In this document: positions 43,897 through 44,225 of the stretch, in pieces | How positions within the stretch are numbered: position 1 is the stretch's first letter | How the letters are laid out: each line of letters begins with the position of its first letter | From: an uncultured Salinisphaerales bacterium | Lineage (GTDB): Bacteria; Pseudomonadota; Gammaproteobacteria; Nevskiales; CAJXLF01 | DNA length: 64,000 bases | Reading direction: 5' to 3' | Assembly: GCA_913055805.1 (NCBI GenBank) | Contig: CAJXLF010000005.1 | Location: forward strand, 62,001-126,000 | Notes under the pieces: model-generated | Seen by the model: only the letters and a program-made list of their open reading frames with translations | What the model was told of the DNA's origin: nothing | Database searches by the model: none | Position numbers and translations under genes: made by a program

Positions 43897-43988
43897 GGAG
43901 AGGTGCCGGAGTGGTCGATCGGGCTCGCCTGGAAAGCGAGTGTATCCTTATCGGGGTACCGAGGGTTCGAATCCCTCCCTCTCCGCCA
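43897..43988 (+). tRNA. tRNA-Ser (anticodon GGA)
   Basis: A 92-nt class II tRNA. The acceptor stem GGAGAGG pairs with CCTCTCC, with G as discriminator and an encoded CCA end. The anticodon stem CTCGC/GCGAG carries the loop CTGGAAA with GGA at positions 34-36. There is a long variable arm and a T-loop GTTCGAATC. It reads UCC and UCU codons. Its 3' end is duplicated downstream. Confidence 0.97.
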
Positions 43989-44225
43989 ATTTGAACCGAT
44001 GTGGATGAGGCACAATGGGCCTCGACGCGGGAGTCTCACCCTCGGAACCGAGGGTTGATGTGGGCCATCCATGGCCCACACCCTGCGGGCAGCACTGGCG
44101 TGCTGTCCCGTTTCGTTCCGGCGAAACGGTCGAATCCCTCCCTCTCCGCCAATTCGAACCAACGTGGACGGGGGCACAATGGGCCTCGGCGCGGGATTCT
44201 CACCCTCGAATCCCCCCCTCCGCCA
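43968..44225 (+). repeat. tandem repeats carrying the tRNA-Ser 3' end (rtT-like)
   Basis: Unit A (43968-44044) starts with the tRNA T-arm/acceptor end. Unit B (44131-44208), 163 bp later, repeats it: the first 22 bases, ending CTCTCCGCCA, are identical, and the remaining 55 or so have about seven changes and one gap. A third, shorter tRNA tail (44206-44225) reads TCGAATCCCCCCCTCCGCCA. A further tRNA fragment, ACCGAGGGTT, recurs at 44047-44056. The layout parallels the E. coli tyrT operon, where 178-bp repeats each include the 3' end of the tRNA gene. No gene was recognised here; frames across it are chance. Confidence 0.85.
44059..44129 (+). repeat. two perfect hairpins between the tRNA-tail repeats
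   Basis: The first is TGTGGGCCAT-CC-ATGGCCCACA (44059-44080), a 10-bp stem with only two central bases. The second is CCGTTTCG-TTCCGG-CGAAACGG (44108-44129), ending one base before unit B. Neither has a T-run, so they look like RNA-processing or structural elements rather than terminators. Confidence 0.75.

Follow-up and report, generated by a model that had tools for sequence, protein, structure and literature searches.

Why should an intact serine tRNA gene be followed by further copies of its own 3' end? This is the case in the window (the whole stretch of 64,000 nucleotides that was analysed), and the arrangement recalls the rtT repeats of E. coli, which for decades looked like a curiosity confined to a single tyrosine tRNA operon. 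We believe it likely that this array is a footprint left by a small non-autonomous palindromic element of the REP/MITE type, called A below, which inserts site-specifically at T^TCR.

The array behind the serine tRNA

The intact tRNA-Ser(GGA) gene, with its CCA encoded, lies at 43897-43988 (ARAGORN; Rfam RF00005 at 57.4 bits); this gene and the parts that follow it, down to ffs, are all on the plus strand. Its end, TCGAATCCCTCCCTCTCCGCCA (43967-43988; repeat and string searches), is the functional first copy of the repeated 3' end. The first spacer (43989-44028) carries an acceptor-like GGATGAGG and has a duplicate of about 90% identity in the next unit (repeat search and sequence). It leads to the first inverted T-arm, GGGAGTCTCACCC (44029-44041), where the T-loop ATTCGAA has become AGTCTCA. 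Past CTCGGAA, which stands between GGGAGTCTCACCC and CCGAGGGT and overlaps with the beginning of the hairpin of the following piece, comes a T-stem 5'-strand copy with T54 (CCGAGGGT, 44048-44055; repeat search), the left half of a split T-arm. The right half is the second tRNA 3' end, again TCGAATCCCTCCCTCTCCGCCA (44130-44151), which comprises the rest of the T-loop, the T-stem, the acceptor and CCA. Between the halves lies the 74-nt palindromic element A, TGATG..CGG (44056-44129), delimited by a model match, covariation and folds. The second spacer (44152-44192; repeat search) is about 90% identical to the first; the second inverted T-arm, GGGATTCTCACCC (44193-44205), pairs with 44206-44213 and has no element; a third, degenerate tRNA 3' end, TCGAATCCCCCCCTCCGCCA, closes the array (44206-44225). 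The next gene is that of the 4.5S RNA (ffs, 44245-44341; Rfam RF00169, 58.1 bits), followed by dnaX. The array thus fills the gap between the tRNA and ffs, which in the relative G027 measures about 50 bp (locus L016: tRNA end at 1460, ffs at 1514).

The earlier note on this DNA described a tRNA-Ser(GGA) with tandem copies of its own 3' end, and its coordinates and periods are right (ARAGORN, repeat search). Its figure of about 90% for the conservation of the flanks also holds: positions 43967-44010 and 44130-44173 agree at 89% (spacing 163), and 44009-44049 and 44173-44213 at 90% (spacing 164). The string TCGAATCCC is found unchanged at 43967, 44130 and 44206 (string search), so that tandem units with the tRNA 3' end stand downstream of the intact tRNA; the third copy is shorter and begins 76 bp past the second. 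A palindromic T-loop insert with an inverted T-arm is found at 44029-44129, and the third copy has the inverted T-arm and no insert. An exact repeat of 22 nt from a tRNA 3' end, CCA included, together with about 60 bp of flank at 89-90%, is not a product of chance. The copies had been said to keep the acceptor 3' strand, the T-arm and CCA. The first and the last are indeed there; the T-arm is represented by the 3' half of its loop and the 3' strand of its stem, the T-stem 5' strand (44048-44055) being parted from the 3' end copy by the 74-nt element. The palindromes, which the note took for mere added structure, are instead one conserved element (44056-44129) and the key part of the array.

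The likeness to E. coli tyrT/rtT, now on a serine tRNA, is borne out and goes further than the earlier note could tell: the inverted T-arm, the T-stem copy, the T-loop insert and the 3' end are present in both. In E. coli tyrT/tyrV the tRNA is likewise followed by repeats of its 3' end, with a period of 178 bp. The unit of E. coli K-12 reads GGGGAAGGATGAGAAGCTTCGACCAAGGTTCGA (CTCGAGCGCC...GCTGAGTA) ATCCTTCCCCCACCACCA, that is, inverted T-arm (TGAGAA), T-stem copy, insert and 3' end; it closes with a spacer, and its palindromic insert is inside the T-loop, GGTTCGA^..^AATCC. The insert is of another sequence family than A, and its site is TTCGA^A as against T^TCGA for A; the E. coli repeats are on tRNA-Tyr and are annotated as an sRNA and as the tpr ORF. 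One further rtT unit is found in the tyrT-tyrV spacer of K-12, and 4680 of 5426 E. coli genomes carry the insert, at a median of two places. The Rfam RtT model (RF00391) has four E. coli matches of 133-138 bits and none in the window array, in L006, in L002 or in the other A arrays tested; by covariance model, the array is not a member of that family.

Compared with its own genome, the segment matches the array itself and one homologous array behind a tRNA-Lys, as well as the 3' ends of other serine tRNAs over 29-30 nt. Another dispersed repeat, TTGGTACATGGAAGTACCAACGCGAAGCG...GGCGCGAGGCAGGAGCCG, is present in the window at about 44385-44500, reverse-complemented downstream of ffs, and at L002:1156-1353 as tandem 99-bp units between tRNA-His and tRNA-Lys.

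Element A and its relatives

Element A has three hairpins, in the window at 44059-44080, 44087-44108 (terminator-like) and 44108-44129 (folds), and across the family its length is about 71-80 nt. The covariance model R1, built from six copies (four of them tRNA-linked) with flanking T-loop letters included, matches the window copy with 81.5 bits over model positions 1-79. With this model, A was found in 131 of 369 genomes of the class, where up to 12 candidates per genome were scored, and in 76 of 398 genomes of the phylum. The family is dispersed and in several genomes dimeric; inverted dimers occur at six loci (L040, L064, L083, L121, L122, L133).

The inverted dimers are also a mark of the CGTC-tagged palindromic repeats, including RPE-4/-6 and dRS3 (Di Nocera et al. 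2013, PMC3733652). As described in passages of that paper, these repeats share with A the inverted dimers and the lack of a known transposase; H. neapolitanus CGTC dimers lie within local palindromes. The likeness may extend to the tag and stem, since the last hairpin of A follows (C)GTCC and has an 8-9 bp stem, mostly with an A-T start, and a loop of about 5. The CGTC repeats have a CGTC (TGTC/CCTC) tag beside an 8-9 bp stem with A-T pairs at its start and a loop of 4-5; many A copies show this as GTCCAAAT.., but the window copy has TGTCCCGTTTCG... A is longer, with its three hairpins, and the same passages name no T-loop or tRNA target, their tRNA mentions being of synthetases and a pseudouridine synthase. 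The REP/REPIN sequences with RAYT (GTAG class) are, like A, short, palindromic, non-autonomous and dispersed; A, however, has no GTAG, no RAYT gene was found linked to it, and the Y1_Tnp gene of its own genome is flanked by AGAAAAGGGGTCGGAG and not by A, so that A does not belong to this class.

The helices of A covary: 93% of helix cells are paired, two-sided changes number 789 against 232 in shuffled data, and a covariation score of 0.68 compares with 0.20 for shuffled and at most 0.10 for slid data. G-U intermediates are very few in helices 1 and 3, and helix 2 keeps one G-T pair. This suggests that the hairpins are kept by selection or conversion at the DNA level; from the two-sided Watson-Crick changes with scarce G-U steps we infer that DNA hairpins with a marked strand, and not RNA, are under constraint.

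The last point bears on an explanation by function, namely an rtT-type RNA transcribed with the tRNA-Ser and perhaps with ffs, whose 3'-end fragments would be regulatory RNAs or sponges, a role reportedly proposed earlier for E. coli RttR. The earlier note's idea that the copies could be processed into tRNA-fragment-like RNAs gains no support from the present data. The layout is that of the E. coli rtT, a simple scan gave no T-run terminator between the tRNA-Ser and the array, the position of ffs about 50 bp downstream of the tRNA-Ser in G027 makes co-transcription plausible, and sX4 RNA, discussed below, is reported to be expressed in Herbaspirillum (PMC6337395). However, a terminator-like palindrome stands ahead of the array at the Lys, the Asn and many other loci, the near absence of G-U steps speaks for DNA rather than RNA, the Rfam RtT model has no match to the array, and the array is unconserved at the tRNA-Ser(GGA) locus within the order. 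Conservation in relatives, on which the earlier note had made its reading depend, was not found: among the other 84 genomes of the order, the pattern of A is missing except for one weak match with three mismatches in another context, and vertical conservation of the array was rejected, the relatives compared being from other genera and families. Two of those genomes, G009 and G027, carry at this same locus full-length tRNA-Ser(GGA) copies in tandem, and the T-loops of these are split, at GGGTTCGA^, by yet other palindromes. We consider an RNA function distinctly unlikely as the origin of the array; as a secondary role it is possible.

The target site and its strand rule

In the window, A sits exactly between T54 and T55 in the T-loop of a partial tRNA-Ser copy. 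A search of the genome with the array gave a second site behind tRNA-Lys(CTT), where 73 bp of the tRNA 3' end and terminator are duplicated perfectly and the duplicates are parted by an inverted T-arm, a T-stem copy and the three-hairpin element A; a pattern search gave a third behind tRNA-Asn. Altogether the genome has 11 copies at E<0.005, nine of which split a partial or pseudo tRNA, while two split no tRNA-derived copy. Eight are in T-loops (Asn, Lys, Ser-GGA, Leu, Glu, Thr, Gln, Phe); the ninth is in the D-loop of a tRNA-Ser(GCT) 5'-end copy, at T^TCAG on the opposite strand. At this last locus (L173, C10:40062-40124) the duplicate of the 5' end, GGAGAGATGGCCGAGTGGCTGA, is upstream of the intact gene and is split by inverted A, and 5' ends can thus be duplicated too. 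An array of one and a half A units was also observed in a tRNA cluster between tRNA-Thr(TGT) and tRNA-Tyr (L170, contig C8).

The class sample shows the same preference. Of 105 copies, counted as near a tRNA when within 110 nt, 32 follow a tRNA 3' end at a distance of 28-97 nt, with 29 in the range 67-97 nt, and one lies just upstream of a tRNA; copies from one genome are non-independent counts, and some bias toward tRNAs may remain from the seeding of R1 with tRNA-linked copies and flank letters. The tRNA-near fraction is roughly flat over the score bins. Thirteen more copies are at 111-800 nt from a tRNA; many of them are further members of tandem arrays, such as the three copies behind tRNA-Leu (L059) and the four behind tRNA-fMet (L062), and some, for example near tmRNA in L076, may be unrelated to the tRNA. 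About half of the copies outside the window's own genome are away from tRNAs. In about 22 of the 32 downstream cases the right flank of A is the host tRNA's own 3' end, with z above 6; with fMet T-loops it reads TCAA.

Precise empty sites were found in three places. A full-length tRNA-Glu pseudogene, upstream of the intact tRNA-Glu, holds a 71-nt copy of A, and without it aligns to the intact gene over 62 nt without a gap across T54^T55. The ORFs of an IS91 transposase (L063) and of HsdM (L061) are continuous once A is removed; the zinc-finger domain PF14319 spans the rejoined IS91 junction, and HsdM_N (PF12161) covers the HsdM region. It follows from these sites that A inserts at N^TCR, in most cases T^TCR, and that no nucleotides are duplicated or lost. 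The HsdM copy has 72 nt, a length that fits in-frame read-through, as in the Rickettsia palindromic elements; the IS91 of L063 itself appears to be inserted in a DUF2126 gene.

The strand of insertion depends on the loop. T-loops without the TTCGAA palindrome have A on the same strand in 13 of 13 cases, as against seven same-strand and 12 inverted in TTCGAA loops (Fisher p=4.5e-4), to which the inverted T-loop insertions are therefore confined (12 vs 0). If the target is T^TCRA, a TTCGAA loop would offer a site on both strands and the other loops on one. A occupies its T^TCR sites precisely and strongly favours tRNA T-loops, those of spare 3'-end copies.

Could the repeats be ordinary tandem duplications by slippage, with the palindromes as mere passengers, REP sequences landing at any intergenic position? 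Palindromes of the REP and CGTC-tagged kinds are frequent, lie between genes and form dimers (PMC3733652), and many A copies are indeed away from tRNAs. For random intergenic insertion, however, one would not expect the exact T54^T55 site, the ratio of 32:1 between downstream and upstream, the spacing of 67-97 nt and the orientation rule, nor the tRNA link of nine of the 11 own-genome copies; this reading is already disfavoured, and we think it very unlikely.

The 3' ends of tRNA genes are also classic att sites, with the boundary in the T-loop. The earlier note's proposal of a recombination or integration site stands in spirit, the T-loop being an insertion target; that the extra 3' ends, which do lie downstream of intact tRNAs, are attR-like scars of lost tRNA-integrated genomic islands is hardly credible, as 50 bp past CCA are duplicated as well (Lys 100%, Ser about 90%), which att exchange would not yield, the conserved palindrome has the same boundaries at all sites, protein genes included, and there is no integrase among the ORFs listed around the array.

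Origin and wider occurrence

Site-specific insertion of A, the reading we prefer, has to account for the geometry of the arrays. In the orientation of the tRNA their order is intact tRNA, terminator hairpin, inverted 3' end, T-stem copy, A, 3' end and spacer. In L038, L040, L048, L058, L098 and others the terminator palindrome continues toward TGG and the inverted acceptor and T-arm, which has the look of synthesis folding back on itself at this point. The inverted T-loop is often TTCTCA or its complement TGAGAA in place of TTCGAA; 14 of the 32 array spacers contain TCTCA or TGAGA, where shuffling predicts 2.0. This exchange is seen in the window (44029-44041 and 44193-44205), in E. coli (L046), in L048, L054, L057, L106, L109, L111 and in others, and spans unrelated tRNAs and species, the E. 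coli rtT included.

The insertion site, its precision, its repeated use at numerous tRNAs in numerous genomes and the layout common with the E. coli rtT are all observed; from these, the most likely course of events is the following. A would insert mainly at T54^T55-C56-R57 in the T-loops of tRNA genes and their copies, on either strand and with no target-site duplication; here it would have occupied the T-loop of a duplicated tRNA-Ser(GGA) 3' end, the intact tRNA upstream keeping its function. The unit of 3' end, spacer and inverted T-arm would then have been tandemly repeated to give the rtT-like array. The copies and empty sites lead us to infer that A is mobile; we presume that it moves as a hairpin-forming single strand by means of an HUH-type or similar enzyme. 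The duplication of the 3' end and the inverted leg could have arisen at the terminator hairpin, by fold-back or template switching, survivors would be the cells that kept an intact tRNA, and arrays could grow via unequal exchange between repeats. Insertion into a ready-made 3'-end duplicate and insertion with simultaneous duplication both fit the data, which leave the order unfixed; we prefer fold-back duplication first, followed by insertion into the spare T-loop.

An examination of the Y1 transposase (PF01797) and of IS91 found no mobilising enzyme for A. In L063, A adjoins the zinc-finger codons of IS91 but interrupts the transposase ORF, and IS91 is thus a victim. PF01797 is present in 100 of 131 A-positive and in 141 of 238 A-negative genomes, a weak statistical link; as 31 of the 131 A-positive genomes have no detected PF01797, it is dispensable for A, and a RAYT/Y1 mobiliser was rejected, the own-genome gene having other repeats around it. 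A single Y1 transposase gene was found in the genome, namely this one (L044, C1:472608-472934), and the AGAAAAGGGGTCGGAG repeats flanking it are inverted.

Casposons and tRNA-integrating elements recognise the T-psi-C region of tRNA genes (PMC9939771). Unlike A, these are large and protein-coding and make duplications of about 15 bp; A has about 75 nt, is non-coding and makes none. No description of tRNA T-loop insertion by REP-like elements was found in the open-access papers searched.

The Xanthomonas family sX4 (RF02223) may be a further case. Its model spans tRNA-Ser and the trailer, and at a tRNA-Ser(CGA) of the class (L177) we find the terminator, the inverted T-arm and a T-loop insert, with a weak R1 match of 21 bits. 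The sX4 model has 262 matches in the class, most of them probably to its tRNA-Ser part; two genomes are above the cut-off, and L177 is one of them. The family model may thus describe a T-loop-insertion array. The window array is not a member: its 36.7 bits, largely from the tRNA itself, are below the gathering score of 70.

It is tempting to go further, though we do so tentatively and would not yet commit ourselves, and to regard A as a widespread tiny tRNA-homing hairpin DNA for which the T-psi-C loop of essentially any tRNA would be a universal landing site, with insertion coupled to fold-back duplication of the 3' end, so that the tRNA survives, and with E. coli rtT and xanthomonad sX4 as products of the same process.

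The results suggest that rtT is one case of a general, recurrent process in proteobacteria, in which palindromes enter the most conserved loop of tRNAs, and that tRNA function is kept because the 3' end is duplicated in the process. The origin of rtT and sX4 becomes testable, and T^TCR within a hairpin loop offers a well-defined target for the enzyme search. Some 'sRNAs' downstream of tRNAs may be insertion footprints. To our knowledge, REP-type palindromes are usually without a definite target site; here such palindromes are linked to one.
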